A stretch of DNA of 64,000 nt from Parapedobacter indicus (lineage in GTDB: Bacteria; Bacteroidota; Bacteroidia; Sphingobacteriales; Sphingobacteriaceae): the NCBI RefSeq assembly GCF_900113765.1, contig NZ_FOQO01000003.1:310001-374000 (forward strand). The letters run 5' to 3'. How positions within the stretch are numbered: the stretch's first letter is position 1; every line of letters begins with the position of its first letter. A program made the position numbers and the translations under genes. Below the pieces are notes generated by a model. That model did no database searches, was not told the origin of the DNA, and saw only the letters and a program-made list of their open reading frames with translations. Shown one piece after another: positions 11,401 through 37,154 of the stretch.

Positions 11401-11431
11401 TCATCATCGAGAATCGTATTAGTTTTCTCAT
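8417..11431 (-). CDS. SusC/RagA family TonB-dependent transporter (PUL1)
   Basis: Outer-membrane beta-barrel importer energised by TonB-ExbBD. Start at ATG 11431 (1004 aa); the codon two upstream is TTG and less likely. Order: signal peptide (1-23), carboxypeptidase-regulatory-like domain (about 35-108: VSGTVIGTDGAPLSGVSVSV), TonB box EEVVVVGYGT (111-120), plug domain (RGRNTINGNTSVLIVVDGII, SSKAIYGAQAANGVMLITTK), then a long barrel ending in FNVGLELSL, a typical C-terminal strand. No STN domain, so no FecR-type signalling is expected. Its promoter must lie in the long gap 11432-12428. Divergent from the PUL2 susC, with which it may share regulation. Confidence 0.96.
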   Translation of the reverse strand: MRKLIRFSMMIVLGVPLWTFGFNEGKGKDLPMQQTVSGTVIGTDGAPLSGVSVSVVGSQAATSTNEAGNYSISVQTGATLRFTMIGYASQDLVVSTAALNVTLEPSDQSLEEVVVVGYGTMRRSDLTGAVVTADIEAFREAPNTNILQSVKGTVPGLQIGQTNQAGAEPAIEIRGRNTINGNTSVLIVVDGIIYNGRMGDLNPADIESVNILKDASSKAIYGAQAANGVMLITTKSGKKGKPVISYSTNLASQTPTSDMRLRNAEEKKQIIRDIYYQNAYLAPDYTQPNPDWDFSNTELVPENVRGIEAGTDYDWWGALTNPGYITNHALTVGGGTEKTSYYLSGGFTKQKGFMMNDNYKRNTVRINLSTDISDWLTIGANTFGAFTDYSGIYPNMSAMKLTSPFATPWDENGEYIIYPTGATNIINPFIAAAADNKDLNTRINGTFYGIVKIPQIPGLEYRVNLGNDFLLANYYYSSPYDADLSGSVSKSNQQRYDMTFDNILSYDNRFGDHGISATFVAGYRKNQFESTLAEGTNVSNISLSYNSLEQAEIQRINSDAWKETFLYQMGRINYNFRNTYMLTATLRQDGFSGFSKNNKSALFPSVGASWVLSNESFVSIPKLDYLRLRGTYGVNGNMTTRYSSLARVTTDDNSKYVFGDGSGTAMGQSMGSLSNDNLSWEKTKGVNAGLDFSLFKNRVSGNIDYYNTETTDLLWNVIIPEITGFSVISSNVGRLKNQGVEVSLSTTPVRTEHVKWDVNLNFAKNTNKIMSLLGEDKNNDGREDDLIGSNLFIGKSIGTVYHYQIDGIWQLDDDVMTGYQPGTYRIVDQNNDGKITADNDRVFLGQTEPAYFFGIQSGLTYKNFTFRFFVNAIQGGKNGYLGENVPANVASTGNFANLNTFNYDLWSVSNPTGKYATGWTVPQINPKPYYSRSFVRVQDISLAYQFNSSLISKIGFKDLRLSVSGKNLLTFTKWDGWDPETGQGINSDAYPVMKSFNVGLELSL

Positions 11432-11891
11432 TTTCAACGTGTTTAATTAATTAGTTAATGAATGCTATTTATAATCTGGTTAAAAAAACTATTCACAAAT
11501 ATGCTGCTCATGACGCCCTGACCTGCCTCTCGGACTTCCATGAAATTAAATCACCTGCCCCGCGCGTGTATAAGCTGCCGAACACCACCATTCTCTCCAA
11601 GAAGTATATTCGTACGGTTCTTTCATAATTTAGAGGTTATCCCACAATAACGGAGCAAGTATAGGAATATTCTTTAATAGATTGCATGTTTTTGCATTTT
11701 TAATTTTTAAAACCACAACAAAACGCCACACACAATCACCAATAATGCACATAAAACGCATAAACTGAAATAAAATTCGGAAGAAAACATGCAATACCGC
11801 ATTAATACGCAAAACTATTACCCCGACTCCTTACCGTCATAACTTGAAGCAAGTTTTTTAATCCAACTACAACGTTTTCGTAAAATTTGCT

Positions 11892-11907
11892 GCGTAAACG
11901 ATTGCGC
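11892..11907. promoter_or_regulatory. LacI-type operator-like palindrome, copy 1
   Basis: GCGTAAACGATTGCGC, an imperfect palindrome (12 of 16 positions symmetric) with the central AAnCGnTT arrangement usual for LacI/CcpA-family operators. It lies between the divergent PUL1 and PUL2 transporter genes. It matches 14 of 16 bases with the copy at 21960-21975 inside PUL2. No LacI-family gene is in the window. Confidence 0.5.
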
Positions 11908-12316
11908 TCTTGCAATATTTTTTTTAGAATTGTCCTAACTAATATAAACAAACACCCATTATGATCGAAAAAGCAATGCCCAGGATGATGTATTTAAAAG
12001 ATTATTGAATTACATCGCCGACATCTCTCACAATTTTTAATGACAGAAATTTGTCCATTTGTCATTTAAAGCCCTTTTAAGATTCAATTTATTGAAATTA
12101 ACATGCTATATAATGAAAACGATTGTCTTACTTCCTCCTTGATACTTGAAGTCATTACTCTCTAAGTACAAATAGATTTCGTTTACGATAACCGAATTAT
12201 GAAAAAAACCTACTATAAACAACTATTTCCTTCGGGTATGGCAGTACCAAACTCCCAAGAAACTTGATTGGTAACGGTTCATTGTGGCTAGCAGTAATGG
12301 CCCGGATAAAAAGGTG

Positions 12317-12337
12317 TCAGCTGCCGTCGCCAGCTGA
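12317..12337 (+). other. Short hairpin in the PUL2 leader
   Basis: TCAGCTG (12317-12323) and CAGCTGA (12331-12337) are perfect reverse complements with a 7-nt loop, about 90 bp before the PUL2 susC start. No T-run follows, so it is not a standard terminator. It could be a leader structure or an operator. Confidence 0.35.
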
Positions 12338-12428
12338 ATGGAGAAAAATCGACTGACTCCGTGTTTATCGGCTTTTCCCTATACCAAAAGAATGAATTGA
12401 TTAATTAATATTTTTTAAAACTTATACT

Positions 12429-15400
12429 ATGGATAAGCACTCTAAGGAGAGGAGACCATACCTCAATAACGGAAGACATGTGCTGGCAATAAAAAAATGT
12501 AGTCGGTGCTTGCTACTCTTTTACCTGTCTTTTTCCTTGGTTTCAAAAGCATATTCGTCAGAATATGGGATTCCTAACGCATCTACAAGGAACACCGGTA
12601 GCCCTACTACACCCGGAAGTACACAAGCACAACAAAAATCAATAACCGGTACAATTGTCGATAATCAGGGAATACCGATTACCGGCGCCAGTATTGTGGA
12701 AGTAGGAACCAACAATGGTACAAAAACCGACGCGGAAGGTCGGTTTTCCATGCAAGTTGGGGCGAACGCCTCCTTAAAGATTTCCTATCTAGGTTACTTA
12801 GAGCAGGAAATCAGTGTTGACGGACAAACGACCCTCAACATCACCCTGCTAGAAGATAACCAAGCGCTGGAAGAAGTCGTCGTAGTCGGATACGGAACAC
12901 AAAAAAAAGTGAATTTAACGGGCTCCGTAGCCGCGATTAAAGTTGACGAAAAAATCACGAGCCGGTCATTGTCGAATGTTTCCTCCGGATTGCAAGGTTT
13001 GTTGCCTGGCTTACAAGTGGCACAAACCACCAGTATGGCCGGAAAGAACGGCGCTTCGCTGATGATCCGCGGGTTGGGTACGGTCAATAATGCCTCGCCG
13101 TTGGTGGTGGTAGACGGGATGCCGGATGTGGACATCAACCGGATCAACTTTGCGGACATCGAAAGCGTCTCCGTACTGAAAGACGCGGCTTCTGCATCCA
13201 TCTATGGTTCACGCGCAGCAAACGGGGTAATTTTGATCACCACAAAAACGGGGAAAGGCGCAGACCGGACCGCGATCAACTTTAATTCTTCCTTTGCATT
13301 GGAACGGCCTACGCGTGGTTATGATTTTATGGCCGATTATCCGCGCGCATTGACGATTCATCAATACCGTGCAGCATCTGGTACACTAAGAGATCAGTAT
13401 AACTTTAAGGACGGCACCATTGACCAGTGGGCGGCTTTGGGTATGATCGATCCCTTGCGTTATCCGAATACCGATTGGTTTGATGCGTTCATGCGGGATG
13501 GTGCGTTGCAAAATTATAACCTCTCGGCATCGGGCGGTGGAGAAAAGTCGAATTTCTACCTTTCAATCGGCGCGATTGACAATCAAGGAGTTCAGATGAA
13601 AAACGACTATTCCCGCTATAACACGCGTTTTAACTATGACTACGATATTTCTAAGTTATTTACCGTGGGAGCTCGTTTCGACGGAAACTGGTCTGAGTTT
13701 ACGTACAGTGGTTATGCCGACGGGATAACGAATAACGACACCGATGATTCAGGTGGGGGTGATATGCAATATGCGATTGCGGGGGTATTACCCTATGATC
13801 CGGTTTCAGGGCGTTATGGGGGTGCGATGGCGTATGGAGAAGATATTCAAGCATATAATCCCTATGCTTATTTTGACTCAAGAAACCCCAGCCAGACTGA
13901 ACAGCAGGCAAATACGAGCATCTATGTTGATTTTAAACCGTTTAAAGGGTTCACAGCTCATGTGGACTATGCGTTGAGTTATCGAAACTATTTTCAGAAG
14001 CGGGCCGATATGCCTACGGGCGCTGCCTATAATTTCCAAACAGATTCGGACTTAGGACGGAACTACGTGGCGGAGAATGCCTCAGTAAGCGATAACAATA
14101 CCACGGCTTATAAAACACAATTGAATGGAAGGTTAAATTATCAAACCACGATTGCCGATCACCACAACATCAACGCCCTCTTCGTTTATAGCGAAGAATA
14201 CTGGCACACGCGCTCTACCAATGCATCCCGAAATGACCGCTTGCACCCCACCATCACTGAATTAAATGGAGCACTCACCAATGTGATTAGTAATGGCGGT
14301 AATTCGGCATCGGAGGGCCTCCGTTCCTATATTGGGCGACTCAATTACGATGCGTTTGACAAATACCTGTTCGAGTTCAACTTCCGGGTCGACGGCTCCT
14401 CGAAATTCACCGAAGAAAGCCAGTTTGGATTCTTCCCTTCTGTGGCAGTCGGATGGCGGTTTACGGAAGAGGGTTTCCTTGCCCCTGTCTTTAACTCATG
14501 GCTATCGAACGGTAAAATCCGGGCGTCCTATGGAAGTACCGGGAATAATTCGGGAGTCGACAGGTTCGAGCAACTAGAAACGTTAACAGCCATGAACTAC
14601 ATGTCAGATGACGTTGTGAAAGGGTTCGTGAACCGGAAAATGATCAATCGGACACTCTCTTGGGAGGAGTCAAGGGTGTTTAACCTCGGATTGGATATGG
14701 GCTTTGTCAACAACCGATTGACCACCGAAATAGACTATTACGATCGGCTAACGAGCGGAATGAATCGTCCTTCTGAAATGTCTATCCTGCTAACTGGTGC
14801 CTACGAGGCTCCTCGTAGAAACATTGGTAACATGCGAAATCGGGGGGTAGAACTGAACCTCACTTGGCAGGATCGGGTTGGAGCGGTTGATTATTCGGTC
14901 AATCTGAATGGCGCATACAACCGCACGAATCTCGAATCATGGAATGAATTCCTCAATAGGGGATGGATATTTATCGATATGCCGTATCACTTCTTGTATA
15001 CCTACCAAGATGCGGGCATCGCCCAAACGTGGGAAGATGTTTATAGTTATACCCCCCAAGGTATTGCACCGGGAGATGTAATCCGCGAGGATTTGAATGG
15101 TGACGGTATCATTGACGGTAAAGATCGAAAAGCCTATAGCAATACACAACGGGATCGGCCGACCACCACATTCGGGATGACGTTAACCGCTGCTTGGAAG
15201 GGCCTTGATTTCTCCGCCCTCTTTAACGGCGCAACCGGGCGCAAAGACTACTGGATTACCGATTTTAATAACACGAGTATGGGCGATCGGCGTTACGCGT
15301 CTACGTGGGATCATTGGACCAAACCGTGGTCGTTGGAAAACCGGAACACAGACTGGCCTCGGTTAGGAACCAGCACGAATCGTTCTGATAATTCCTTTTA

Positions 15401-15629
15401 TTTATATGACATGTCGTATCTACGTCTTAAGAATTTACAGCTGGGATACAACATACCAACCAAGTTCCTGTCTAAGATACATGTCGCGAACGTGAGGTTC
15501 TACCTGTCGGCAGAGAATGTGTTTACGCTCACCGCGTATCCGGGACTTGACCCTGAAAAACAAAGAAGCGGGAGAGATTTATATCCGATTAATCGATCCT
15601 ATTCTGTGGGTGTTAATATTGGCTTATAA
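12429..15629 (+). CDS. SusC/RagA family TonB-dependent transporter (PUL2)
   Basis: 1066-aa outer-membrane importer for products of the uronic-acid glycan locus. From ATG 12429 it has a long polar leader, then a hydrophobic signal (CLLLFYLSFSLVSKAYS, 27-43). A carboxypeptidase-regulatory-like domain follows (about 70-145: ITGTIVDNQGIPITGASIV), then TonB box EEVVVVGYGTQKK (148-160). The plug has MIRGLGTVNNASPLVVVDGM and SASIYGSRAANGVILITTKT, and the barrel ends in YSVGVNIGL. There is no STN domain. It is followed by susD after 44 bp. The start is uncertain: the 26-residue polar stretch before the hydrophobic core is unusual, and no better internal ATG precedes the core. Confidence 0.95.
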   Translation: MDKHSKERRPYLNNGRHVLAIKKCSRCLLLFYLSFSLVSKAYSSEYGIPNASTRNTGSPTTPGSTQAQQKSITGTIVDNQGIPITGASIVEVGTNNGTKTDAEGRFSMQVGANASLKISYLGYLEQEISVDGQTTLNITLLEDNQALEEVVVVGYGTQKKVNLTGSVAAIKVDEKITSRSLSNVSSGLQGLLPGLQVAQTTSMAGKNGASLMIRGLGTVNNASPLVVVDGMPDVDINRINFADIESVSVLKDAASASIYGSRAANGVILITTKTGKGADRTAINFNSSFALERPTRGYDFMADYPRALTIHQYRAASGTLRDQYNFKDGTIDQWAALGMIDPLRYPNTDWFDAFMRDGALQNYNLSASGGGEKSNFYLSIGAIDNQGVQMKNDYSRYNTRFNYDYDISKLFTVGARFDGNWSEFTYSGYADGITNNDTDDSGGGDMQYAIAGVLPYDPVSGRYGGAMAYGEDIQAYNPYAYFDSRNPSQTEQQANTSIYVDFKPFKGFTAHVDYALSYRNYFQKRADMPTGAAYNFQTDSDLGRNYVAENASVSDNNTTAYKTQLNGRLNYQTTIADHHNINALFVYSEEYWHTRSTNASRNDRLHPTITELNGALTNVISNGGNSASEGLRSYIGRLNYDAFDKYLFEFNFRVDGSSKFTEESQFGFFPSVAVGWRFTEEGFLAPVFNSWLSNGKIRASYGSTGNNSGVDRFEQLETLTAMNYMSDDVVKGFVNRKMINRTLSWEESRVFNLGLDMGFVNNRLTTEIDYYDRLTSGMNRPSEMSILLTGAYEAPRRNIGNMRNRGVELNLTWQDRVGAVDYSVNLNGAYNRTNLESWNEFLNRGWIFIDMPYHFLYTYQDAGIAQTWEDVYSYTPQGIAPGDVIREDLNGDGIIDGKDRKAYSNTQRDRPTTTFGMTLTAAWKGLDFSALFNGATGRKDYWITDFNNTSMGDRRYASTWDHWTKPWSLENRNTDWPRLGTSTNRSDNSFYLYDMSYLRLKNLQLGYNIPTKFLSKIHVANVRFYLSAENVFTLTAYPGLDPEKQRSGRDLYPINRSYSVGVNIGL

Positions 15630-15673
15630 ATTAAGTGTGTCAACAGAAGTAGCATTGTAAAAACACAAATGAC

Positions 15674-17566
15674 ATGAAACGAATAAAAGATATATACCGC
15701 CGGTTCTTTCTTTGCACGTTGGGATGTGTGATGTTAATCTCTTCCTGCAAGGACAACCTCATGGAACAAGTTCCGGCCGGTGAGTTGGCCTCCATTTTAT
15801 ATTGGAAGACCGAAGCGGATGCCGAATACGCCCTAAATGGGGCCTATAGCGCTGCCAGACGAATTTTCTCCAGAGATTACATGTTTGATGGTTTGGGCGA
15901 CTACCTTCGCTATCGAAGCAGGGCAACGGCGTCCCAATCAACCGGCGATCGCGCCATTGCTTACCGTAACGGCGAGTATGCCGATCCTTCCGGATCATAT
16001 GGCGATTCCTATGATAATTACTTTCAGTATTCGTATGCTGCTGTAAACCATGTAAATTATGTGATTCAGAACGTGGAAAACATGCTCAATAGCGGGGCAA
16101 ATGAATCGTCGCGTGCGAAACTCGAATCCATTATTGGGGAAGCGCGTATGCTACGCGGCATGATCTATTTTCGGTTGATCTCAATGTGGGGGGACGTCCC
16201 CTATATTGACAAAATCGTCGAAAGCAACGATGAAATAGCGAACATACCGCGCACATCGATTACAACCATAAAAGACGCCATCTTGGCCGACTTCACCTAC
16301 GCTTGGGAGAAATTGCCTGAGCAGCCTGCGGCGTTGGGACGATTCACCAAATGGGGCGCCCTTGCTTTCCGTGGAAAGTTCCATCTGTACTGGGCATGCT
16401 GGAACCGCACCTCTTGGCCTTGGAGCACACCCGTATCGCCGACCGGTGGCTGGCCGGAACTCGATACCTTTACGCCCAATTCGGCCGAGTCAGTGGCGTC
16501 CTATGAAGCCGCCGCAACTGACCTGAAGAAAGTCATTCAAGAATCGGGTATTACACTATTCCGCAATGGCGATCCCGGAGAATGGGGAGAGATGGGCGAT
16601 AGTGAGGTCTTGCCGAACTACTACTATTTATTTATCCCGACGGCCAACAACGATCCTGAATTGATGGTGGGTTTCACCCACGGGGGCACCGGAACCGGCC
16701 AAGGCGAAGAGTTGATGCGCGATTTCGGCACACGGGCAACAGAAGGTGCGCAAGGATGGGGACAACCGCGCTACGAATTGGCGGCTCGGTATCAGTCGAC
16801 CCTCACGGGCGATTTTGTTGCACCATTGACCCCAGTAGATCCGACCGAACCGGACGCACGTACCCGCGAAAACTCCACCTTGAACCCCGAATCGTACCGA
16901 AACCGGGACTACCGAATGAAATCGACCTTATTGTGGGATGGAGAAACCATGACAACCATGCGGAATCTTGCGTTTGATGAAGTGCGTAAGTATCAGTACA
17001 AAACCCTAACCGGTACTGTCGACGGCTTCGGAGCGATCAATGCCGATGCCGACCAGACGGGATACATCATGCGTAAATTTGTACGCAACTATGCAGGTCA
17101 AGGACGCTCCGATGGGGATTATTACATTCCGGTAATGCGGCTGGCAGATGTGTTCCTACTCTATGCCGAAGCGGCCAATGAAGCGTATGGCCCGATGGGA
17201 GATGGAGGATTGGCGCTGGACGTGGTCAATAAAGTACGCCACCGGGGTAACCTACCCGCGCTAAACCCTGACAAATACAGCAGTAAAGAAACCTTCTTTT
17301 ATGCAATCGAACAAGAACGGATTGTTGAACTATTCGCGGAAGGACACCGGCTGTTCGACCTTCGTCGCTGGCGGTCGATTGAACGGACCTTCTTACCTCC
17401 GCAAACGTCACCGGGCTTTCGGATGTATGATACACATGGAGGGTTGAGAAATACCTATTTCAACAACACCTCGCTTTTATCTTACCAACGGATGTATATA
17501 TTCCGCATTCCGCCTTCTGAAAGAAACCGGAACCCGAACTTAACACAAAATGTTCCGTGGTTATAA
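15674..17566 (+). CDS. SusD/RagB family outer-membrane lipoprotein (PUL2)
   Basis: 630 aa. Signal peptide with lipobox LISSC (Cys25), then the SusD N-terminal helix ILYWKTEADAEYALNGAYSA, GEARMLRGMIYFRLISMWGD and VPYIDKIV in the TPR region. DVFLLYAEAANEAYGP and ERIVELFAEGHRLFDLRRWR follow, and it ends MYIFRIPPSERNRNPNLTQN near the C-terminus. It acts at the cell surface as glycan-binding partner of the preceding SusC. It sits at the head of a run of genes with very short gaps, so probably one operon through 27321. Confident family call; the ligand is inferred to be a uronate-containing polysaccharide from the neighbouring lyases. Confidence 0.95.
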   Translation: MKRIKDIYRRFFLCTLGCVMLISSCKDNLMEQVPAGELASILYWKTEADAEYALNGAYSAARRIFSRDYMFDGLGDYLRYRSRATASQSTGDRAIAYRNGEYADPSGSYGDSYDNYFQYSYAAVNHVNYVIQNVENMLNSGANESSRAKLESIIGEARMLRGMIYFRLISMWGDVPYIDKIVESNDEIANIPRTSITTIKDAILADFTYAWEKLPEQPAALGRFTKWGALAFRGKFHLYWACWNRTSWPWSTPVSPTGGWPELDTFTPNSAESVASYEAAATDLKKVIQESGITLFRNGDPGEWGEMGDSEVLPNYYYLFIPTANNDPELMVGFTHGGTGTGQGEELMRDFGTRATEGAQGWGQPRYELAARYQSTLTGDFVAPLTPVDPTEPDARTRENSTLNPESYRNRDYRMKSTLLWDGETMTTMRNLAFDEVRKYQYKTLTGTVDGFGAINADADQTGYIMRKFVRNYAGQGRSDGDYYIPVMRLADVFLLYAEAANEAYGPMGDGGLALDVVNKVRHRGNLPALNPDKYSSKETFFYAIEQERIVELFAEGHRLFDLRRWRSIERTFLPPQTSPGFRMYDTHGGLRNTYFNNTSLLSYQRMYIFRIPPSERNRNPNLTQNVPWL

Positions 17567-17593
17567 TTGATCCTTATTTTAAAAACTTTCAAC

Positions 17594-18112
17594 ATGAAAA
17601 CAATCATAAATAGATTCATCCTATCTTCTTTGCTCCTCTTGGGTGTGGCGGCTTGCAGCAAGGACCTTCCGGTAGATGAGGATGGCCTGCTCATCACCAC
17701 CAGACAAGAATGTTACGTGAGTAATTTTGAGTTGCTAGGTACCGATCAACAAACCATTCGTGTGGGGAATTCCTATATTGATACCGTAGCGCAAGTGGCC
17801 ATTGCGTATGTTCGATTCGGTGCTGATCTAACCAAACTTTGGCCACAGGTTTCGTTGGTTGAAGATGCGAAACTGTCGCCAAAAATCCCAACCTATGATG
17901 CTTGGATGGATTTTTCCGGCTCAAAAATGTCCGTAGACTTTATCGAAGAAGATTGGGTAGGTGGAAATGCAACTGATCAGTTAAGCGAACGAATTGTTGG
18001 CAACCCTTCGGCTTTTCCCGCAACGGCGAAAAAATACACGGTCGTATCGGGAGATAGGAACATTCGAAAAGAATACACTTTTCTGATCGTCGAACGACCC
18101 TTACAACAATAA
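17594..18112 (+). CDS. Small surface lipoprotein, possible glycan-binding (PUL2)
   Basis: 172 aa from ATG 17594. It has signal peptide MKTIINRFILSSLLLLGVAA followed by Cys21 (lipobox GVAAC), then a beta-rich domain with ECYVSNFELLGTDQQTIRVG, YVRFGADLTKLWPQVSLVED, AWMDFSGS and a final KEYTFLIVERPLQQ. It resembles the DUF5018/DUF1735-type immunoglobulin-like modules that follow SusD in Bacteroidota PULs, but I cannot assign the exact family. In such positions these proteins usually act as SusE/SusF-like surface glycan-binding proteins. Its stop overlaps the region just before the next lipoprotein gene. Existence as a gene is secure; function is inferred from position. Confidence 0.8.
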   Translation: MKTIINRFILSSLLLLGVAACSKDLPVDEDGLLITTRQECYVSNFELLGTDQQTIRVGNSYIDTVAQVAIAYVRFGADLTKLWPQVSLVEDAKLSPKIPTYDAWMDFSGSKMSVDFIEEDWVGGNATDQLSERIVGNPSAFPATAKKYTVVSGDRNIRKEYTFLIVERPLQQ

Positions 18113-18138
18113 TGTGTAAAACAAAAATATACAGTCAG

Positions 18139-19137
18139 ATGAAACTAAGAAATATATATAGCGCAATCCTGCTTGCCTTTGCTTTTATGGGGGTAAGCTG
18201 TGATGACGAGCCGGTCTTGATGAAGGATCCTGTGACCGCGCTAAGCAACGATTGCATCAAAAGGAGCTTGCCGATAGCGCCGAACCTCATTGGCGAGGAA
18301 ATCGAGTTTGCCTATGCCATGGCGATACCAAAAGAACTGGGTCAGTTAACTTCGGCACAGGTAGTTGCTTCAATCCCTGGTGCATCGGGAACCTATTTTG
18401 ACCCCAATTCGTATCATACCAATGCAAGTGGTCAGGATGTCCCGGTACCGGTTGCGTCGGATAGCCAGACAAGCGGGGGCACTACCTCCATTCAGTTTAC
18501 CGCGGATACGGCTGCCGCTACCTTACGATTCTACTACATCGTTCCGGAAGAAGCACGCGGCAAGGAGGTATCCTTCAAGTTTTCGGTCAAGTCCAGCAAT
18601 GGACAATCGGCCGAATACGACATGGGACCGTATAAAATATCGAACATGGATATGACGCGCAACCTTTCACTCACCTCCGATGACGAATGTTATATCTCGT
18701 TTCACGATAACACCGAAGCTGCAGTCGTTTACTCAAAAAATGACCTCGCCACTGATCCTTCACTTGCATCGCAGATCGATCTTGTATATGCCCAACATGC
18801 GAGCGCCGACCTCGCGCACGCAATCTATGCGGCAGATGCGCCCGAAGCTTATCGCCCGGGCGTGGTGTTCCCGTCAGGATTTTCGAATCAAACAAAACTG
18901 ATTAAAGAGTATGGCCTGCGTGATCGGCAACTGTCTAACTTGCAATACAGCCACTTTATCGATGATTTGGACTTTCAACAGATAAACATGGGACGTTCAA
19001 CGAACTATGTGCTTACTTTGAAAGAGGAAGCAGGGGCATGGATTGAAACCGCCGACGGTAGTTACCGCGCGTTTGTATTTATCAATGCGGCGGGTGCCGA
19101 CGGCATGACCGTGAGTGTGAAACGCTATAAAATGTAA
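18139..19137 (+). CDS. Surface lipoprotein, DUF4466/SGBP-like (PUL2)
   Basis: 332 aa from ATG 18139 (an upstream ATG at 18112 would place nine extra residues before the signal peptide). Signal MKLRNIYSAILLAFAFMGVS and lipobox Cys21. The mature part starts DDEPVLMKDPVTALSNDCIK and is beta-rich: FAYAMAIPKELGQLTSAQVV, ATLRFYYIVPEEARGKEVSF, LSLTSDDECYISFHDNTEAA, YRAFVFINAAGADGMTVSVK. It resembles lipoproteins of the DUF4466 kind that occur next to glycosaminoglycan lyase genes; I recall this from family knowledge and cannot verify it. Likely a surface glycan-binding protein of PUL2. It is followed by a 100-bp gap with a strong inverted repeat before the first lyase. Confidence 0.8.
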   Translation: MKLRNIYSAILLAFAFMGVSCDDEPVLMKDPVTALSNDCIKRSLPIAPNLIGEEIEFAYAMAIPKELGQLTSAQVVASIPGASGTYFDPNSYHTNASGQDVPVPVASDSQTSGGTTSIQFTADTAAATLRFYYIVPEEARGKEVSFKFSVKSSNGQSAEYDMGPYKISNMDMTRNLSLTSDDECYISFHDNTEAAVVYSKNDLATDPSLASQIDLVYAQHASADLAHAIYAADAPEAYRPGVVFPSGFSNQTKLIKEYGLRDRQLSNLQYSHFIDDLDFQQINMGRSTNYVLTLKEEAGAWIETADGSYRAFVFINAAGADGMTVSVKRYKM

Positions 19138-19151
19138 TATGCAGTTTGCCC

Positions 19152-19210
19152 AGAAGGCGTTTAAACGGCTTGCGATGGCTTTTTCCGGTGCGACCTTTCA
19201 AACGCCTTCT
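19152..19210 (+). other. Long-loop hairpin between lipoprotein and lyase genes
   Basis: AGAAGGCGTTT (19152-19162) and AAACGCCTTCT (19200-19210) are perfect 11-bp reverse complements around a 37-nt loop. It occupies most of the only sizeable gap in the 5' half of the PUL2 operon. No strong T-run follows (TTAGTTG), so partial attenuation or mRNA processing/stabilisation between the binding-protein genes and the enzyme genes is more likely than full termination. Confidence 0.55.
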
Positions 19211-19237
19211 TAGTTGTAAGAATTGAAGTAACCTACT

Positions 19238-21937
19238 ATGAAACGTGTTATCACAATCTTTTTTATCGTAAATACATCCATCTCTTGTGCCGTAAGTCAA
19301 GAGGTCCATCCACACATCCTTGTAAAGAATGCGGAAAAAGAAGCTATTCTAGAAAAAATAGACAAACACGAGTGGGCTGAATCGATCTTCAACGAGCATT
19401 ATAACAAAGTAACCCCTTACGTGAAACGCCATCAAAAGGATCCGGAGTGGATCGTAAGCAGGTACCTGATGAACCGGGTAAAGGGAAAACGCTATACGCA
19501 TGCGTATGATGATGGCTCCGGACATTTCCTGGTAAAATATTCAGGCGATGCCCCGGTTCCTACCGTCCGGGTTTCCACACATAAAAGAAGCCCCGTTACC
19601 GAAAGCGGAGCTCCCTATATCCGGCCATCCATTGAGGAGTTGATACCCTATGATACTTCTCAATTTATTTGGGCGTTAAATACCGAAACCAACCAGAAAG
19701 ATTTTATCGATCCGGGGCAGTTCGTATCGCAAATTAATGGCGAAATTAACGATCTGGCCTTGAGTGCAGCTATTATTTATTGGCTAAAAGATGATGAAAA
19801 CTACGCAAAATTTGCAGCGGATATTTTAAATCAATGGGCAAGAGGCGCGTCCTATCAAGAACCTATAGTGGGCGCATGCCGAACCGGATTCTTAGATATC
19901 CAGACACTCGGGGACAATCAATACCAGGCGTTGATTCTCGCATATGATTTTTTATACCCTTTTCTAAAAAAAGAAGGGTACGAACTGGGTTGGTATCAGA
20001 ATGTCTTCGATAAATTCGCGTCCACGCTGACATTCAGGGGGTACTGGAATAATAATTGGTACGCCGCGGTGAGCTCAACGCTCGTGTATGCTGCGCTGAA
20101 TCTTGATGATAAAGAGAAACAGGATTATTACCTTCAGTTTGTACTTGAAAAGGATACCATCAATGGAGCTTGCGGACATCTAAGTCTCGCCACCACCGTA
20201 AAAGACTGGTTAACGCCCGATGGACATTGGAAAGAACCGGGTGGATATCATAATTTCCCCGTTTCAAACCTCATTAAGGCAGCTTTCGCTTTGGAGAAAA
20301 ATGGATATCCGGTATTCCAGACGTATCCCGAGCTTTTCGATGCCTCGTATGCTATGCTTAAGTATTCATTCCCGAACCTTTATGTTTCAGCTTTTGGTGA
20401 TACTGGAAGAGCGTCTCAAAGCCCCGAGACATTGGAGATTGGATTGGCGGTCGCAGCCAAATACAATCGTCCTGAAATTGCAGGCATGACAGCTGCGATG
20501 AATACCCTGATTGGGCGAGGAATATACAAGCGAAGCAATTCCGGTATCTTGGGGTTACTTACTTATTTGCCGGATATTCCAGCAGTGGAAAGCAAGCCTT
20601 TCTCTTGGCCGCGGAGCGGGACACTGGATTTTGCACGATTTTTCTTTCAACGAAACGGAACGGATGAAAAAAAAGGGCTCATGTATGGCGTGCAAGGAGC
20701 AAGTTATAACCATAATCATTGCAACGGGATGGCCATGGAACTATATGGGGGTGGAGAAGTAATGGGGGTAGATGCGGGGACAGGGCCGAATTACGAACAC
20801 TACTTACATCAAAATTATTTTAGCCAGTGGGCTGCCCACAATACCGTGGTTGCGGCGGGCAGGTCTGCCTCGACACCGTTCAGCGGGGGCGCCGGGAAGA
20901 AAAATATCGGACAGGTAGAACTGGCCGCTATGGAACCTTTGCCAGGAAACGACGGCATTTCACCATTTTATTCCTTCACCGATACCCGATACCTAGATCG
21001 TTCAACAGGAACCAATCAGTTGCGTACAATGGGCATCGTTAGAACCTCCGACTCTACCGGTTACTACCTGGATATCTACCGCTCGGATAACCAAATATCA
21101 AACGATTACGTGTATCATAATATAGGAGACACCTTGTTTCTTTCCGATCAGCATGATACCCCGCTTCGGATGGAACCGACCGAGTATCCTTTGTCGGGAG
21201 ACGACCATCCTGGATTCAGATTTTTCTCGAACGTGAAGAAAAAAGAGAACATCTCTAAAAGCTTAAAGGGAGCATTTCACGCTAAAAACCGGGCAGGAGA
21301 TGAGGTGATGATGCATGTTTTTTTTCCCGCTTCAGACAAGACCTATTACACGGCAACTTCTCCAGCAACCAAAACAGCGGGCCGTCAATACGCCAATAAA
21401 CGGTTGCCCCTGTTTACCATCCGTTCCGAAAAGGAGGCATGGACCGAACCCTTTATATGCGTCTTTGAACCCGCTGTGGGCAAAGCGAACAGCACCATAA
21501 CATCGGTGGAAAAAATCGCTGAATTATGCAATGGCGAAAATACCGTGATTCGCGTTCAACATACCGATGGTTCCGCCGAACTAATTTTCCAGGGTAATAG
21601 CGCAGAAGCAACCGTAAAAGGGAACAATTTTAGTTTTTCCGGCTTTTTTGGAATTATCTCACTCGATATGGATGGAAACTTGCAGCAGTTATACTTGGGC
21701 GAAGGAGACCATATCGCTTATGACGATGTGAAAGTTACCACATCGGATGCCCCCGGTTCCGTGTGGATTCAATTCGACACCAAGGGTGAGTACTCAATTT
21801 CAACCAATAAACCGGTTACGATCCATTTAAATGGTACAGAAATACACGTCCCGAAACCGACGAAAGGCTCAAGTATGGGGTCAATGCGAGATTTCCAAGC
21901 CGTTTCTTACGGAATAAAACCAGCAGGAAAAAGATGA
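19238..21937 (+). CDS. Heparinase II/III-family polysaccharide lyase, large form
   Basis: 899 aa, signal peptide ending near ISCAVSQE, so periplasmic or surface. Layout: N-terminal (alpha/alpha) toroid to about residue 430 (DNQYQALILAYDFLYPFLKK, NNWYAAVSSTLVYAALNL, DGHWKEPGGYHNFPVSN with a candidate catalytic Tyr near 336). A beta-sandwich region follows, with the heparinase II/III signature around YNHNHCNGMAMELYGGGEVM (490-509, candidate His492/His494) and WAAHNTVVAAG. It then continues to a C-terminal beta domain. Such enzymes cleave uronic-acid glycosides by beta-elimination, leaving 4,5-unsaturated ends. At 899 residues it is longer than typical PL12, PL15, PL17 or PL21 enzymes, so I cannot assign a PL number. 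Neighbouring PL8 and GH88 genes support a glycosaminoglycan-like substrate. Confidence 0.8.
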   Translation: MKRVITIFFIVNTSISCAVSQEVHPHILVKNAEKEAILEKIDKHEWAESIFNEHYNKVTPYVKRHQKDPEWIVSRYLMNRVKGKRYTHAYDDGSGHFLVKYSGDAPVPTVRVSTHKRSPVTESGAPYIRPSIEELIPYDTSQFIWALNTETNQKDFIDPGQFVSQINGEINDLALSAAIIYWLKDDENYAKFAADILNQWARGASYQEPIVGACRTGFLDIQTLGDNQYQALILAYDFLYPFLKKEGYELGWYQNVFDKFASTLTFRGYWNNNWYAAVSSTLVYAALNLDDKEKQDYYLQFVLEKDTINGACGHLSLATTVKDWLTPDGHWKEPGGYHNFPVSNLIKAAFALEKNGYPVFQTYPELFDASYAMLKYSFPNLYVSAFGDTGRASQSPETLEIGLAVAAKYNRPEIAGMTAAMNTLIGRGIYKRSNSGILGLLTYLPDIPAVESKPFSWPRSGTLDFARFFFQRNGTDEKKGLMYGVQGASYNHNHCNGMAMELYGGGEVMGVDAGTGPNYEHYLHQNYFSQWAAHNTVVAAGRSASTPFSGGAGKKNIGQVELAAMEPLPGNDGISPFYSFTDTRYLDRSTGTNQLRTMGIVRTSDSTGYYLDIYRSDNQISNDYVYHNIGDTLFLSDQHDTPLRMEPTEYPLSGDDHPGFRFFSNVKKKENISKSLKGAFHAKNRAGDEVMMHVFFPASDKTYYTATSPATKTAGRQYANKRLPLFTIRSEKEAWTEPFICVFEPAVGKANSTITSVEKIAELCNGENTVIRVQHTDGSAELIFQGNSAEATVKGNNFSFSGFFGIISLDMDGNLQQLYLGEGDHIAYDDVKVTTSDAPGSVWIQFDTKGEYSISTNKPVTIHLNGTEIHVPKPTKGSSMGSMRDFQAVSYGIKPAGKR

Positions 21938-21959
21938 GGATCGTAAAAGGAATGGCTAG

Positions 21960-21975
21960 GTGTAAACGTTTGCGC
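21960..21975. promoter_or_regulatory. LacI-type operator-like palindrome, copy 2
   Basis: GTGTAAACGTTTGCGC, with perfect central AAACGTTT, 23 bp after the stop of the large lyase and 44 bp before the PL8 start. It differs at two positions from the copy at 11892-11907. Position suggests an internal regulated promoter for the PL8-GH88-lyase group. Confidence 0.5.
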
Positions 21976-22019
21976 ATTTGTCCATAAATATGTATTATTG
22001 TAATCCATATACTAAAATT

Positions 22020-24188
22020 ATGATATCCAGCTCACGTATTCGGCGCATATGGATCGTAATGCTATTTATTTCGCAGAGTTACGCCCAGCAAGCCAACGAC
22101 TTCGCAATAATTGGGGAACGGCTAACAACTTCGTTGCTTGCCGCTCCCGTGAGTACCGGTCAAGTAGAACGGATCATTACCACTATGGCCAAAGACGGTA
22201 CGTGGTCCACAATCAATTACCGGGATACCAGCAAGACCGGGTTCGAGCATCGCATCCATCTTGAAAACCTGCTAGCCATGGCCAAAGCGTACAATCAACC
22301 CGGAAGTTCGTACGCGCACAATGTACAATTACTGGTTGCATTCAGGGCGGCCTTACAGCATTGGTTGGAGGAAGATTACCGCTGTGAGAACTGGTGGTGG
22401 AACGAAATCGGCACACCGGACGCAATGGCAAACATCCTGTTGTTAATGCGCGATGAACTAAATGCCGATGAACTTGCTGCAGGGATTGCGATTGCCGAAC
22501 GTTCCAACTTTGATGGCTTTGGTGCTCGCCCTGGTGGCGACTTCGTCAAAATGGCAGGTATCAAAGCAGTGACTGAACTGGTTCGCCGAGATACTGCCGA
22601 ATTCGCACGAGCCATTAAGACGATGAGCGAACAAATCTATGTGACGGAAGACCGGGGTATCAAGCCCGATATGAGCTTTCATCACCGAACGGATAACGTC
22701 CCTTCTACATTATCTTATGGCGCGCAATATGTCAGAATCTTTTTATACTGGGCGGATCTTGTCAGCGAAACACGCTTCGCCTTTGAACCCGAAGCCATTG
22801 CGCTGGTAACCGACTACTACCTGGACGGAATGCGAAAAGCCATGCCTTTTGGACGTTTCGCAGATCCGGGTATTAAGAACCGTGAAGTATCCAGAAAATC
22901 TTCCGCGGGACGGAGGAGCGATTACACCGGCAAGCTGCTGGCACGAATCAGCAATTACCGCAAAGAGGAACTCGAACATCCCAACCTTCGAAGCAACCAA
23001 TATTTCTGGTACTCTCACTATCATTCCCATCAACGTCCGAAATATTTTGCATCGGTACGGATGTTCTCCAATCGTTCCAATAACATGGAATATCCACACA
23101 ATGAGGAAGGATTGAAAAACCATTTTTACGCGGACGGCAGCCAATTCATCTCCCGCACCGGCCGTGAATACTTCAACATCTACCCTTCGTGGGATTGGCG
23201 GAAAATCCCCGGTACCACCGTGGTACAGGTCGATACGTTTCCTCATTGGAAAGACCTGGTCAAGAAAGGAACGACGGCTTTCGTGGGCGGTGTGTCCGAT
23301 GGCGAATACGGCGCAGCCACTTTTGACTTTCTTAGTCCCCATTCGGGATTAAAAGCCCATAAATCGTGGTTTTTCTTTGACGACGAAATTGTTTGTCTCG
23401 GTGCAGGGATTACATCAACCGCGACACAACCTGTAATGACCACGCTGAACCAGGCGCTGTCGAACGGTCCCGTGTGGTTGAACGATAAGCGCAATACCGG
23501 CGAGCAGGAACAACAAATCGAAGGTCCGGCCTGGGTTAATCACGACAGCACCGGATACATTGTCTTGAATGCAAACCGCATTTGGCTCCGCCGGGGAAAA
23601 TCCACTGGAACCTGGCGAAGCATCAGCCATCAGGATCATGCAACCGATGAACCCGTTACGCAAGATATCTTTACATTGGCCATTGATCACGGCACACAAC
23701 CAAAGGACGACACCTACGCGTACATCATACTACCCGCGGCAAGCGAATCACAAACCAGCGCTTATGCGCAGCACCAGCCGACGGAAGTAGTAAGCAATAC
23801 GAAAGAACTGCAGGCCGTATCAAATAAGCTGTTAGGCATTCACTATGCCGTATTCTACGAACCGGGCAACATAGTCTTCCCCGGGGGCATACACCTGGAA
23901 ACCAACGAACCGGCGTTGTTCATAATCAAAGCTGCCGACAAGGGTATAGAACAGATCACGGTGGCCGATCCTACCCGCAAACTGGAAAAAATTACTTTCC
24001 GCTTGAAGTTTGCTACAAGCAGCGATACCACCCTCACCGTACAGTTGCCCAGAGGTACACTGGCCGGAAAATCGCTCCGGTTGGATGCTATTTCAAAAAA
24101 TGCCAAGACGTTTCTTCTCCGTTCAGACACATTAGCTGCCCGCAGAGACCGTATCTGGAAAGGAGATAGGAAGTTTCCGCTAAATTGA
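22020..24188 (+). CDS. PL8-family polysaccharide lyase
   Basis: 722 aa from ATG 22020; a TTG codon at 21978 is in frame but would put 14 residues before the signal peptide (cleavage near SYAQ, 20-23). It is a PL8-type enzyme (hyaluronate/chondroitin AC/xanthan lyase fold). The toroid carries NWWWNEIGTPDAMANILLLM (124-143), a near match to the family NWWdyEIGtP motif. SFHHRTDNVPSTLSYG (219-234) supplies candidate catalytic His222 and Tyr233, and GRRS (297-300) a possible arginine. The C-terminal half holds the beta-sandwich (FFFDDEIVCLGAGITSTATQ is typical). The usual catalytic-Asn motif TGAN appears replaced by PGGD (171-174). It acts by beta-elimination on uronate residues; products feed the adjacent GH88 enzyme. 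Confidence 0.85.
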   Translation: MISSSRIRRIWIVMLFISQSYAQQANDFAIIGERLTTSLLAAPVSTGQVERIITTMAKDGTWSTINYRDTSKTGFEHRIHLENLLAMAKAYNQPGSSYAHNVQLLVAFRAALQHWLEEDYRCENWWWNEIGTPDAMANILLLMRDELNADELAAGIAIAERSNFDGFGARPGGDFVKMAGIKAVTELVRRDTAEFARAIKTMSEQIYVTEDRGIKPDMSFHHRTDNVPSTLSYGAQYVRIFLYWADLVSETRFAFEPEAIALVTDYYLDGMRKAMPFGRFADPGIKNREVSRKSSAGRRSDYTGKLLARISNYRKEELEHPNLRSNQYFWYSHYHSHQRPKYFASVRMFSNRSNNMEYPHNEEGLKNHFYADGSQFISRTGREYFNIYPSWDWRKIPGTTVVQVDTFPHWKDLVKKGTTAFVGGVSDGEYGAATFDFLSPHSGLKAHKSWFFFDDEIVCLGAGITSTATQPVMTTLNQALSNGPVWLNDKRNTGEQEQQIEGPAWVNHDSTGYIVLNANRIWLRRGKSTGTWRSISHQDHATDEPVTQDIFTLAIDHGTQPKDDTYAYIILPAASESQTSAYAQHQPTEVVSNTKELQAVSNKLLGIHYAVFYEPGNIVFPGGIHLETNEPALFIIKAADKGIEQITVADPTRKLEKITFRLKFATSSDTTLTVQLPRGTLAGKSLRLDAISKNAKTFLLRSDTLAARRDRIWKGDRKFPLN

Positions 24189-24189: not shown

Positions 24190-25413
24190 ATGAATAGACA
24201 TATGAAATATCCAAAAACAATGAAAAAAATGGCGGGTCTCGGATTAGCCGTGATCATAGCCACCTCCGTAAAAGCGCAACCGGGTAAGTTAGCGTTAACT
24301 GATGATTTCGTAGACAAAAACTTAAAAGAAGCCGCCGCACAGTATCACACGTTGATACAACGCGTGCCGGAAGGAGTTTTCCCGCGTAACTACATCAAGG
24401 CCGACGATAAGTTGGTAACCGCCAAGAGCAACTCCTGGATTTCGGGATTCTATCCCGGCACCTTGCTTTACCTGTATGAGTATACGCGAGACGCCGAACT
24501 GCTTAAAGAAGCGGAAAATCGGCTCCAACTGCTGGAAAAAGAAAAGAATAATAAAGGCACACACGACCTGGGCTTTATGCTCTACTGCAGTTTCGGTAAC
24601 GCCCTGCGGCTTACTGGAAACCCCCACTACCAGGACGTTCTACTCACAGGCGCGGAATCACTGGCCTCCCGCTTTAACCCCACTGTCGGCTGCATCCGTT
24701 CTTGGGACCACAACGGCGACAAATGGAAATTTCCCGTCATCATTGACAACATGATGAACCTTGAGTTCCTGAACTGGGCCTCGCGCGTTTCTGGAAATCC
24801 CAAATACGCAGACATTTCGAAAACGCATGCCAACACCACCCTGAAAAACCATTTCCGGGCCGATAACAGTTCCTATCATGTAATCGACTACGATCCGGAA
24901 ACCGGGGCGGTACTACACAAACATACGCATCAAGGTGCCAGCCACGAATCCGCTTGGGCACGCGGGCAAGCATGGGGACTTTATGGTTATATCCTGATGT
25001 TCCGGGATACCCAGGATAAAACTTACCTGAAACAGGCCCGAAACATTGCGACATTTATCCTGGACGAATCAAGTACTCCGGAAGATGGCATCCCCTATTG
25101 GGATTACAGTGTCTCCGGTCCCGATGTGCCGCGCGACGCATCGGCGGCAGCCATTACGGCATCGGCACTTCTTGAACTGTCGGGTATGGTTAAAGGGAAA
25201 GAAAGCAAGCGCTATCTCCAAGCAGCTGAACATATCCTTACCAGCCTTTCGTCGGCGGCTTACAAGGCACCTATCGGCACAAACGGAGGGTTTATCCTGG
25301 AACATTCTACCGGCCATTTTCCGGGGAACAGCGAAATCGACGTGCCCCTATCATATGCCGATTATTACTATGTAGAAGCCTTGCTTCGATACAAACATTT
25401 GTTAGATCAATAA
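24190..25413 (+). CDS. GH88 unsaturated glucuronyl hydrolase
   Basis: 407 aa. It hydrates the 4,5-double bond of the unsaturated uronic acid left by polysaccharide lyases, which then releases the ring from the oligosaccharide. Seen: signal-like N-terminus ending SVKAQ (26-30), so probably periplasmic; SNSWISGFYPGTLLYLYEYT; THDLGFML with Asp126; IIDNMMNLEFLNWAS with Asp186. The 60-residue spacing matches the two catalytic aspartates of Bacillus GL1 UGL (Asp88, Asp149). HQGASHESAWARGQAWGLYG is also a family hallmark. It starts one base after the PL8 stop, and ATG 24202 is an alternative start. Together with the three lyases it completes depolymerisation to monosaccharides. Confidence 0.95.
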   Translation: MNRHMKYPKTMKKMAGLGLAVIIATSVKAQPGKLALTDDFVDKNLKEAAAQYHTLIQRVPEGVFPRNYIKADDKLVTAKSNSWISGFYPGTLLYLYEYTRDAELLKEAENRLQLLEKEKNNKGTHDLGFMLYCSFGNALRLTGNPHYQDVLLTGAESLASRFNPTVGCIRSWDHNGDKWKFPVIIDNMMNLEFLNWASRVSGNPKYADISKTHANTTLKNHFRADNSSYHVIDYDPETGAVLHKHTHQGASHESAWARGQAWGLYGYILMFRDTQDKTYLKQARNIATFILDESSTPEDGIPYWDYSVSGPDVPRDASAAAITASALLELSGMVKGKESKRYLQAAEHILTSLSSAAYKAPIGTNGGFILEHSTGHFPGNSEIDVPLSYADYYYVEALLRYKHLLDQ

Positions 25414-25425: not shown

Positions 25426-27321
25426 ATGGATACTCCAGCAAGGCCCCTCGTTTATCGCTTGGTTATCTTTTTGTTGTCATTCGCGTTCCTAACCGTTACC
25501 GTGGATGCACAGACAGCTGCTCACCACGGTCCGAAACTCCAAAACCCCATTGATGTGGCGTACGTAAAAAAACACCTCCGGAAGGCACAGCCACGGTTGG
25601 TGTTGAATCGTGACATCGAGAAACGGTTGAGACAGCAACTGAAAACCGATCCGGTGGTACAAAACCTTTATAAGGCCATCCAGCGGGATGCCGCAGCCAT
25701 TCCAGGCGAACCGCTGCTGGAGCACAAAAAAATCGGCCGCAGATTACTTTCTGTTTCCAGGGAGATGCTACGCCGGGTGAATATGCTGGGCATGGTTTAT
25801 CGTATTGAAAAAGATCCCGCCATACTGAACCGCATCAACGACGAAGTACTAGCGGTTTGCCGGTTTTCAGATTGGAACCCTTCGCATTACTTGGATGTGG
25901 GCGAAATGGCGTTGGCGGTAGCCCTCGCGCTCGACTGGACCGCGGGAGATCTGCCGAAAGCGACCATTGAAGAAGCCGAAAAGGCACTGATTGAAAAAGG
26001 CATTCAACCGAGCTGGCCAACGGAAAATAAAAATGCCTGGTGGGCCTATGGTAACAATAATTGGAACCAGGTGTGCAACGGCGGGATGATTGCAGCCTCC
26101 ATTGCCATTGCCGAGCGTGATCCTGAATTGGCGGCAAAAACACTGCACCGGGCCCTCGACGGACTACCTAATGCCCTCCACGAATACATGCCAAGCGGCA
26201 TCTATCCCGAAGGATCTACCTATTGGGATTACGGCACGGGCTTCTCCGTGATCACCATCGCCATGCTGGAAAGTGCCTTTGGAACGGACTTCGGCTACGG
26301 CGATTTCCCGGGATTTCTTGAGAGTGCCACCTTCCGCGTGCTCACCAATGCACCTTCAGGCATGTATTATAATTTCGCCGATTGCGGTGACCGGCGTGGA
26401 CAGAATGGCGACATCGTGCTGGCCTGGTTCGCAAAACGTACAGGGAACGCTGCCTATTTCGAACAAGACAGGTTCTTGAAACCCGTGGATGAAATGAGCC
26501 GCCTTTCGCGACTGGGAGGGGCCGGGCTGGTATGGGTAGCTCAATTCGAGGAAAAAGCCGAGGGAAGCATCCCCACCGCTTGGAAAGGCGATGGTTCCAA
26601 TCCAGTAGTATTTTTTACAGGCGGCCCCGATGACGCTCATCAATACTACTTCGGTGGGAAGGGCGGCCGCGGCACGGTCAATCATGGCAACATGGACGGT
26701 GGCTCGTTTGTATTTGAATTGGATGGCGTACGCTGGGCAGTTGATCCCGGAAACCAAAGCTACGAAGACCTCGAAAAAACAGGGTTTGACTTGTGGGGGA
26801 AAAAACAAAATAGCCAACGCTGGACATTGCTCACGAAAAATAATTTCGGTCATAGTACGCTCACCGTAAACGGTCAGCTTCACCGTGTAGATGGAATGGC
26901 CACCGTCACCGACTTCAAAGACGGTGCTGCGCCCGAAGCGACGGTGGATCTGACAGCTGCTTTCGGTGACTTGTTGGCATCCGCCCAACGTCGGTTTGTG
27001 AAAGATAGCCCCACTTCATTGCTCATCGAAGATCAAATCTCCCCGTCCGACAAAACTGAGGAGGTGACCTGGCAGCTGATGACCACGGCAGACGTAATCA
27101 TCCAACCGGGCGGGGCCTTACTACGGCAAGATGGAAAATCCCTGCGCATCGAAAACCTATCTCATCCGGAACTCCGGTTTTCGGTTGTCTCGCTGGATCC
27201 CGCACCGTTAGCGCTGGATCGGCAAATTAAAGGCTTGAAACGGATTGAACTGCGTATACCCCGTTGGACGATGAAGCAGGCGACGGAAACCATCCGGATC
27301 CGGTTGGCGGAAGGAACGTAA
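25426..27321 (+). CDS. Heparinase II/III-family polysaccharide lyase, short form
   Basis: 631 aa with signal peptide (VTVDAQ, about 24-29). The toroid half has LDVGEMALAVALALDWTAGD, NAWWAYGNNNWNQVCNGGMI and YPEGSTYWDYGTGF with candidate catalytic Tyr (260-269). The beta half has GRGTVNHGNMDGGSFVFELD with His420, then GVRWAVDPGNQSYEDLE and a C-terminal beta region. The NNWNQVCNGG and NHGNMDGGSF motifs are typical of PF07940 heparinase II/III-like enzymes. Its length suits the PL12/PL21 range, but I cannot name the family. It is the last gene of PUL2, 12 bp after the GH88 gene. Probable action: eliminative cleavage of oligosaccharides in the periplasm before GH88 acts. Confidence 0.85.
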   Translation: MDTPARPLVYRLVIFLLSFAFLTVTVDAQTAAHHGPKLQNPIDVAYVKKHLRKAQPRLVLNRDIEKRLRQQLKTDPVVQNLYKAIQRDAAAIPGEPLLEHKKIGRRLLSVSREMLRRVNMLGMVYRIEKDPAILNRINDEVLAVCRFSDWNPSHYLDVGEMALAVALALDWTAGDLPKATIEEAEKALIEKGIQPSWPTENKNAWWAYGNNNWNQVCNGGMIAASIAIAERDPELAAKTLHRALDGLPNALHEYMPSGIYPEGSTYWDYGTGFSVITIAMLESAFGTDFGYGDFPGFLESATFRVLTNAPSGMYYNFADCGDRRGQNGDIVLAWFAKRTGNAAYFEQDRFLKPVDEMSRLSRLGGAGLVWVAQFEEKAEGSIPTAWKGDGSNPVVFFTGGPDDAHQYYFGGKGGRGTVNHGNMDGGSFVFELDGVRWAVDPGNQSYEDLEKTGFDLWGKKQNSQRWTLLTKNNFGHSTLTVNGQLHRVDGMATVTDFKDGAAPEATVDLTAAFGDLLASAQRRFVKDSPTSLLIEDQISPSDKTEEVTWQLMTTADVIIQPGGALLRQDGKSLRIENLSHPELRFSVVSLDPAPLALDRQIKGLKRIELRIPRWTMKQATETIRIRLAEGT

Positions 27322-33426: not shown

Positions 33427-33432
33427 GTTCAA

Positions 33433-37044: not shown

Positions 37045-37119
37045 ACATTTGTTACGTTTGGTTATGATTTTAGTTCAATGCAATCCTAACGAGGAATTAA
37101 GTTTCATGGCCAACCAACC

Positions 37120-37154
37120 GGCTGGAATTGTTGGCGCAATTCCGGCCATTTTTT
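37120..37154 (+). terminator. Hairpin plus T-run between fecR and susC, plus-strand orientation
   Basis: GGCTGGAATTG (37120-37130) pairs with CAATTCCGGCC (37137-37147) with one G-U-type mismatch and a 6-nt loop, followed by six T at 37149-37154. This is a textbook intrinsic terminator for plus-strand transcription, yet the flanking genes are on the minus strand. On the minus strand the hairpin lacks a following T-run, so it would act there as a structure between fecR and susC only. Confidence 0.5.

Follow-up and report, generated by a model that had tools for sequence, protein, structure and literature searches.

A stretch of 64,000 nucleotides from Parapedobacter indicus (the window: positions 310001-374000 of contig C22 in a genome of 6.16 Mb, labelled G000 among the genomes compared) contains a polysaccharide utilization locus (PUL) probably for glycosaminoglycans, PUL2, in which two near-identical palindromes, sites B1 and B2, lie before the SusC/SusD genes and before a PL8-family lyase gene. 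These are probably operators through which a LacI-family regulon of hexuronate catabolism (of the KdgR/ExuR/UxuR kind) has been extended to the locus; we give this reading, including the arrangement of site B with a second operator, site A, a probability of about 0.74.

In the proposed mechanism, B1 and B2 would be bound by a hexuronate repressor of the LacI family, which would occupy the -33 region of two promoters of the main-sigma type, one serving PUL2 from SusC/SusD onward and the other, internal, serving the PL8, GH88 and heparinase-like genes. The lyases and GH88 would release unsaturated uronates into the KduI-KduD / UxaC pathway; an effector, probably a pathway intermediate such as 2-keto-3-deoxygluconate, would then free the operators from repressor, so that uptake, lyase and catabolic genes would be induced in concert. 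Site A, lying 26 bp upstream of B1, would be a second operator, common to the uxuB-uxuA-uxaC (glucuronate) operon, and would probably be bound by a paralogous LacI-family protein, likelier to activate than to block. The sites, their targets, their conservation and their promoter-like geometry are read directly from the genomes; from these we infer the pairing of protein with site, the effector and the sign of regulation.

Probable operators at PUL2 and at hexuronate genes

The preliminary description of this DNA had drawn attention to B1 and B2 as near-identical 16-bp palindromes differing at two bases, and had taken them for LacI-type operators. Both are where it placed them, and the assignment agrees with their even palindromic form and central CG (the form given for LacI-family sites in passages of PMC4052901). 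It had overlooked site A, which is patterned differently from B, and the connection to hexuronate catabolism.

11866..11881, + strand: site A, the second kind of LacI-type operator, ACTACAACGTTTTCGT, centred at about -63.5 relative to the predicted start
11892..11907, + strand: site B1, LacI-type operator GCGTAAACGATTGCGC, oriented towards PUL2 and centred at -37.5 relative to the predicted start
21960..21975, + strand: site B2, LacI-type operator GTGTAAACGTTTGCGC, before the PL8 gene and centred at -37.5 relative to the predicted start

All three are imperfect palindromes of 16 bp with CG at the centre, matching their own reverse complements at six of the eight half-site positions. A single rule for CG-centred LacI-like palindromes finds five in the window, three of them intergenic, and these three are A, B1 and B2; both B1 and B2 are non-coding, although open reading frames (ORFs) of at least 150 amino acids cover 95.4% of the window.

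Loose matching of the 16-mer (up to two mismatches) shows no enrichment in the organism's own genome, with 13 rows against 12 for a reversed control, so that the case rests on the exact motif, on conservation and on context. The exact 14-mer used, GYGTAAACGWTTRC, was picked after both window sites and the hits at kduI and exuT had been seen; for this reason the own-genome result is partly circular, and other species are the more independent test. Across nine genomes of the genus, GYGTAAACGWTTRC gave 29 rows against four in the reversed control, and these reduce to 24 places when the palindromic exuT sites, which gave two rows each, are merged. The own genome contributes five rows (control 1), equivalent to four places, at the promoters of PUL2, PL8, kduI-kduD and an exuT-like gene; none of the four is coding, and the frequent occurrence inside coding regions that had been named as an argument against operators is not seen. 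At the level of the genus, 22 of the 24 places are at kduI (seven), exuT-like (seven), PUL2, PL8 or GH88 promoters (six: G000 twice, G002, G005, G006 and G008) or at other GH88-like genes (two: G004 and G007), the remaining two being inside ORF calls (G002, G006). The kduI site is kept in all eight genus genomes that have kduI (seven exact, and the variant ATGTAAACGTTTGCAT in G004), the exuT-like site in seven of eight (in G008 it is within an N-terminally extended ORF call, yet upstream of the conserved start), and a site B at PUL2 or PL8 in all four genus genomes with PL8.

The predicted hexuronate catabolic targets are kduI-kduD and the exuT-like gene for site B, and uxuB-uxuA-uxaC2 for site A. 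KduI, tagaturonate reductase and glucuronate isomerase exceed their NCBIfam cut-offs, while KduD is slightly under (336 versus 338.85 bits); UxuA is assigned by Pfam, UxuB by context and by its Pfam match to short-chain dehydrogenases, and the exuT-like transporter, far below every NCBIfam cut-off, by family and context alone. A further palindrome, perfect over 28 bp (GCGCAAACGTTGCCGGCAACGTTTGCGC), lies upstream of uxaB on contig C21 of G000 (L026:3530-3557); it amounts to two LacI-like sites with a 12-bp offset, and related sequences occur in hexuronate clusters of G009 (L165:11574) and G010 (L167:17713).

Promoter geometry and the second operator

For promoters we took the -33/-7 consensus of PMC7366714 and PMC9723704, in which, in the passages concerned, TAnnTTTG is placed at -12 to -5 (PMC9723704) and a -33 box is described as not identifiable in Flavobacterium johnsoniae. 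Both window sites carry such elements:

11901..11904, + strand: -33-like ATTG in the right arm of B1, in N20 geometry
11925..11932, + strand: -7-like box TAGAATTG, five of six matches to TAnnTTTG, predicted start about 11937
21969..21972, + strand: -33 box TTTG in the right arm of B2
21993..22000, + strand: -7-like box TATTATTG, predicted start about 22005

This geometry was examined in 17 oriented sites, eight at PUL2, PL8 or GH88 and nine at kduI (one of them, in G022, outside the genus); the exuT sites, the uxaB double site and the kduI sites of G050 and G057 were left out. The right arm of the operator carries ATTG or TTTG (an xTTG box) in the oriented sites, and a TAnnTTTG-like box with four to six of six matches follows xTTG by exactly 20 bp (N20) in 16 of the 17, the other having N21. 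Summed over the sites, the score is highest at N20 (83 of 102), a value reached by none of 20000 shuffles; the result was likewise 0/20000 for a reduced set of eight sites, which was hand-chosen and is only partly independent. That the operator arm provides the xTTG box of this N20 arrangement in 16 of 17 sites supports repression by occlusion. At the exuT sites, judged by eye, the operator is just downstream of a TATATTTG box.

That both palindromes are chance matches might be argued from the two-mismatch scan, with its lack of a genome-wide excess over the reversed control, but such an origin is contradicted by the cross-species specificity of the exact motif, by conservation and by the N20 geometry; it is so highly improbable that we reject it. 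The internal regulated promoter that had been suggested before PL8 is supported: operator, -33 and -7 elements are correctly disposed there, and 33 of 39 positions are identical to the promoter of the GH88 gene in G006, whose product is 84% identical to that of the window. These features fit an internal promoter of this kind, although G005 and G008 show none ahead of their PL8 genes.

Site A has its own distribution. With up to one mismatch, CTACAACGTTTTCGTAAA finds 14 places in eight of the nine genus genomes (control 0), only two of which are in the own genome: the copy at 11866 and one upstream of uxuB. Eight of the 14, in eight genomes, are upstream of uxuB-uxuA-uxaC2, and four are A+B composites with 26-bp spacing, at PUL2 in G000, G005 and G008 and at PL8 in G002; of the remaining two, one accompanies a variant B at a GH88 gene of G007 and the other is upstream of a SusC gene in G005. 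The genus genomes bearing PL8 (G000, G002, G005 and G008, at E <=1e-60) are the same as those with A at PUL2 or PL8. The PUL2 promoter and SusC of G008 are on the ends of two contigs, their adjacency being deduced. In comparison with this 82%-identical relative of PUL2, the 42-bp A+B block (36/42) is the strongest alignable non-coding stretch, the rest of the PUL2 upstream region giving just short, weak matches. A search of genome contigs found the composite pattern in three species alone, Parapedobacter composti, P. soli and P. luteus, the own genome being possibly outside that search.

When the best -7-like box was sought only 40-48 nucleotides after A, it started at 41-44 nucleotides in 13 of the 14 sites (the exception, with a gap of 47, is that of SusC on contig C25 of G005), which puts A at about -62 to -64. 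With every spacing allowed, the highest score belongs to the 41-44 window (68 of 84, with 62 for the next outside it), and none of 3000 shuffles reaches the top; for six less related A sites the score is 27 of 36 versus 26 for the next window, and 9/3000 shuffles reach the maximum (0/3000 at the fixed window). Statistical support for the site-A spacing is moderate, and weaker than that for site B. TTTG at N19-N21 was found in none of the eight uxuB promoters. Site A sits at an activator-like position (about -63) and probably aids RNA polymerase rather than blocking it; there are precedents for LacI-family activators in Cra/FruR and, by prediction, PckR (mentioned in parts of PMC4052901). We suggest tentatively, as a possibility that falls well short of the regulon itself in probability, that the PUL promoter integrates two paralogous LacI hexuronate sensors as an AND gate, a repressor at -37.5 and a class-I-like activator near -63.

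Alternatively, a single LacI-family protein might bind A and B as tandem operators for cooperative repression, with no activator. A and B do have an AACGTT-type core in common, multiple sites are reported for about 20% of LacI-regulated operons, and ligand-free DNA binding for the majority of LacI factors (sections of PMC4052901). Outside the core, however, A and B differ, and each retrieved its own targets when scanned for, the kduI and exuT-like promoters in the case of B and uxuB in that of A; moreover the 26-bp spacing of their centres is outside the peaks of 13, 22 and 32 bp given in the same source for pairs of LacI sites. We consider a single protein rather unlikely.

Outside the genus, CTACAACGTTTTCGTAAA-like sites occur in 35 of 242 genomes; in the loci read (30, genus ones included) they are found at a mixture of genes, and they are not counted as part of the regulon. 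An exception is G118, from another genus, in which two site-A-like sequences are 33 bp apart upstream of a gene that by eye resembles kduI (L203); this suggests that the A motif may mark hexuronate genes beyond the genus too.

Candidate regulators and conflicting observations

The supposition that the regulator is encoded outside the window holds well, as the genome has 12 genes of the LacI-HTH type and the window interval none. The expectation that a LacI gene would carry the same site upstream was disappointed: neither of the two best candidates, R1 and R2, carries its motif.

R1 (G000:C21:208249-209253) has orthologues of 82-90% identity in seven other genus members and relatives of 50-69% in nine more genomes, and in 12 of these 17 genomes the gene shares a contig with uxaC1 or kduI at a distance of no more than 50 kb. 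R2 (G000:C19:161776-162885) has orthologues of 68-85% in the same seven genus members, and one of 52% in G022, directly beside uxaC2. In a quick tree, which gave no support value for their joint node, the R1 and R2 relatives form neighbouring groups; among the sequences shown, the two have different recognition helices (SPSTVSRAL versus SVSTVSKAL). The sole genus member without close relatives of R1 and R2 (best 36-37%) is G001, which also has no kduI match, no exact site B, no site A at up to one mismatch, and uxuA-uxaC without adjoining uxuB. We propose R1 as the best candidate for site B and R2 for site A.

Several observations weigh against the regulon as we have drawn it. Many sites of the geometry test are orthologous, and hence not independent. 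B2 is 44 bp before the ATG at 22020, and B1 is 521 bp before the PUL2 SusC start at 12429; more than 75% of known LacI-family sites are 30-140 bp upstream (according to passages of PMC4052901), and B1, unlike most of them, would imply a leader of about 490 nucleotides. B2 has no counterpart before PL8 in G005 and G008, where no gap separates PL8 from the gene ahead of it; an exuT site is missing from G007; and G022, despite its relatives of R1 and R2, has no site A at up to one mismatch. Autoregulation, attributed to 72% of LacI regulators in the same source, is not evident: genome scans (A at one mismatch, B at none) gave no site at R1 or R2, and the 330 bp upstream of the ORF starts used for them contain no match to A at 11 of 15 positions and to B only at 10 of 14. 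The genus members that have R1 are also those that have R2, so that presence and absence assign neither A nor B to either.

Two further points of this kind also favour a site-B regulator other than R1. In eight other genera with R1 relatives (G009-G011, G013, G014 and G018-G020), whose recognition helices differ from those of Parapedobacter, the kduI and uxaC1 loci examined had no site B at 13 of 16 positions or better; and G050 has a site-B-like motif before kduI, within a kdu-uxa operon whose own, adjoining LacI gene is closest (44%) to a different Parapedobacter protein, C23:48k. A relative of this operon's LacI might thus recognize site B. Against it, the C23:48k gene is divergent beside genes that, judged by eye, resemble those for a sugar kinase and for xylose isomerase, and there is the proximity of R1 orthologues to uxaC1 or kduI already described. 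A regulator other than R1 seems to us unlikely, and R1 is retained as the preferred candidate.

The locus, its neighbours and comparison with Bacteroides

PUL2 combines a SusC/SusD pair with carbohydrate-active enzymes, as judged by Pfam, and is in that sense a PUL:

12429..15629, + strand: SusC-like TonB receptor (Pfam Plug, CarbopepD_reg_2)
15674..17566, + strand: SusD-like lipoprotein (Pfam SusD_RagB)
17567..18112, + strand: small protein without a Pfam match
18112..19137, + strand: DUF4466 protein
19238..21937, + strand: heparinase II/III-like protein (Pfam PF07940)
22020..24188, + strand: PL8 family lyase, chondroitinase-AC-like (Pfam Lyase_8 domains)
24190..25413, + strand: GH88-like unsaturated glucuronyl hydrolase (Pfam PF07470; no NCBIfam match)
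25426..27321, + strand: second heparinase II/III-like protein

The PL8 protein scores 373 bits against NCBIfam chondaseAC, far below the cut-off of 1000; for its start, ATG at 22020 is favoured over TTG at 21978, as a signal-peptide-like stretch (by eye) follows the ATG. Scanning of 28 window proteins revealed no hybrid two-component or SusR-type gene.

If the predicted start is correct, the PUL2 SusC leader (11937-12429) is about 490 nucleotides long. Rfam gave nothing over 11300-12600 up to E = 1, no family there accounting for the long leader, and the conservation of small ORFs within it was unconvincing by eye. The leader of G008 is seemingly of similar length (across the contig ends), and that of G005 measures about 110-120 nucleotides from its predicted start. 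Downstream, a 31-bp gap separates the second heparinase-like gene from a Mur ligase gene (27353-28654) on the same strand, an arrangement that makes read-through from the PUL2 and PL8 promoters possible.

On the other side of the operators, on the - strand, is PUL1: SusC (8417-11437), SusD, a GH42-like protein, a DUF6259 protein and a SIS-domain protein. It too has a conserved upstream element, distinct from A and B:

11656..11726, - strand: PUL1 upstream conserved block, 62/71 identical (87%) to G006

The block, in G006 also upstream of the PUL1 SusC orthologue (88% identical protein), is 140-166 bp from the operators and has no LacI-like site by the palindrome rule; it may be the site of some further PUL1 regulator. 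Within it are a direct repeat of TGCATGTTTTTGCAT type and a TATACTTG box. It had been proposed earlier that PUL1 and PUL2 are jointly controlled through a shared operator. The site is indeed located between the divergent loci, and in G006 the PUL1 SusC orthologue is likewise divergent, at a similar distance, from a GH88 gene bearing site B; but a neighbourhood conserved in two species indicates linkage, not control. The promoter elements overlapping B1 point only to PUL2, PUL1 has its separate block, and the A+B block is found at PUL2 without an adjoining PUL1 orthologue in G005 and, by inference across the contig ends, in G008. Joint control is therefore improbable and not supported, and we assign the operators to PUL2.

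Other parts of the window have control systems of other kinds. Ahead of a cluster that includes SusD (31870-38982, - strand; likely SusC at 33433-37044) stand genes for an ECF-type sigma factor and for a FecR-type protein, a pair that represents a separate control system. A GntR/FCD regulator (46825-47502) immediately precedes what is likely a third SusC/SusD cluster (47763-52841, SusD alone having been scanned). Between these, after two longer copies, overlapping ORFs at 45368-45943 and 45934-46704 make up one MacB/FtsX ABC permease, apparently split by a frameshift.

Bacteroides thetaiotaomicron offers the nearest comparisons, drawn here from parts of PMC3878776 and PMC4052901. Its KdgR, UxaR and UxuR are likewise LacI factors predicted to govern glucuronate and galacturonate catabolism; our likening of R1, R2 and their sites to them is by targets and description. 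The KdgR regulon is described as taking in a limited number of periplasmic and extracellular genes (PMC3878776), whereas the regulon predicted for Parapedobacter includes SusC/SusD, PL8 and GH88 of a glycosaminoglycan locus. Monosaccharide regulators over SusC/SusD operons are also known there in ManR and AraR, the arabinan operon being dually controlled (PMC3878776), but these are of the GntR and NrtR families and the partner in dual control is a hybrid two-component system, while the two inputs in Parapedobacter are both predicted to be of LacI type. For substrates and enzymes of the same kind, Bacteroides glycosaminoglycan loci are switched by hybrid two-component polysaccharide sensors, HTCS_Hya (BT3334, chondroitin/hyaluronan) and HTCS_Hep (BT4663, heparin) (as presented in sections of PMC3878776); in Parapedobacter the control is instead predicted to be exercised by LacI factors at the monosaccharide level. 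Among the matches listed from open-licence literature, none described a glycosaminoglycan PUL of Parapedobacter as being under a LacI factor.

The regulon is small and makes exact, testable predictions of start sites, operators and regulators. In it, the genes for uptake and for the lyases appear to be tied to sensors of the final sugar acids, with the operator arm itself serving as the -33 box; and if the AND gate is real, a decision based on degradation products would replace the usual hybrid two-component sensing of the polysaccharide.

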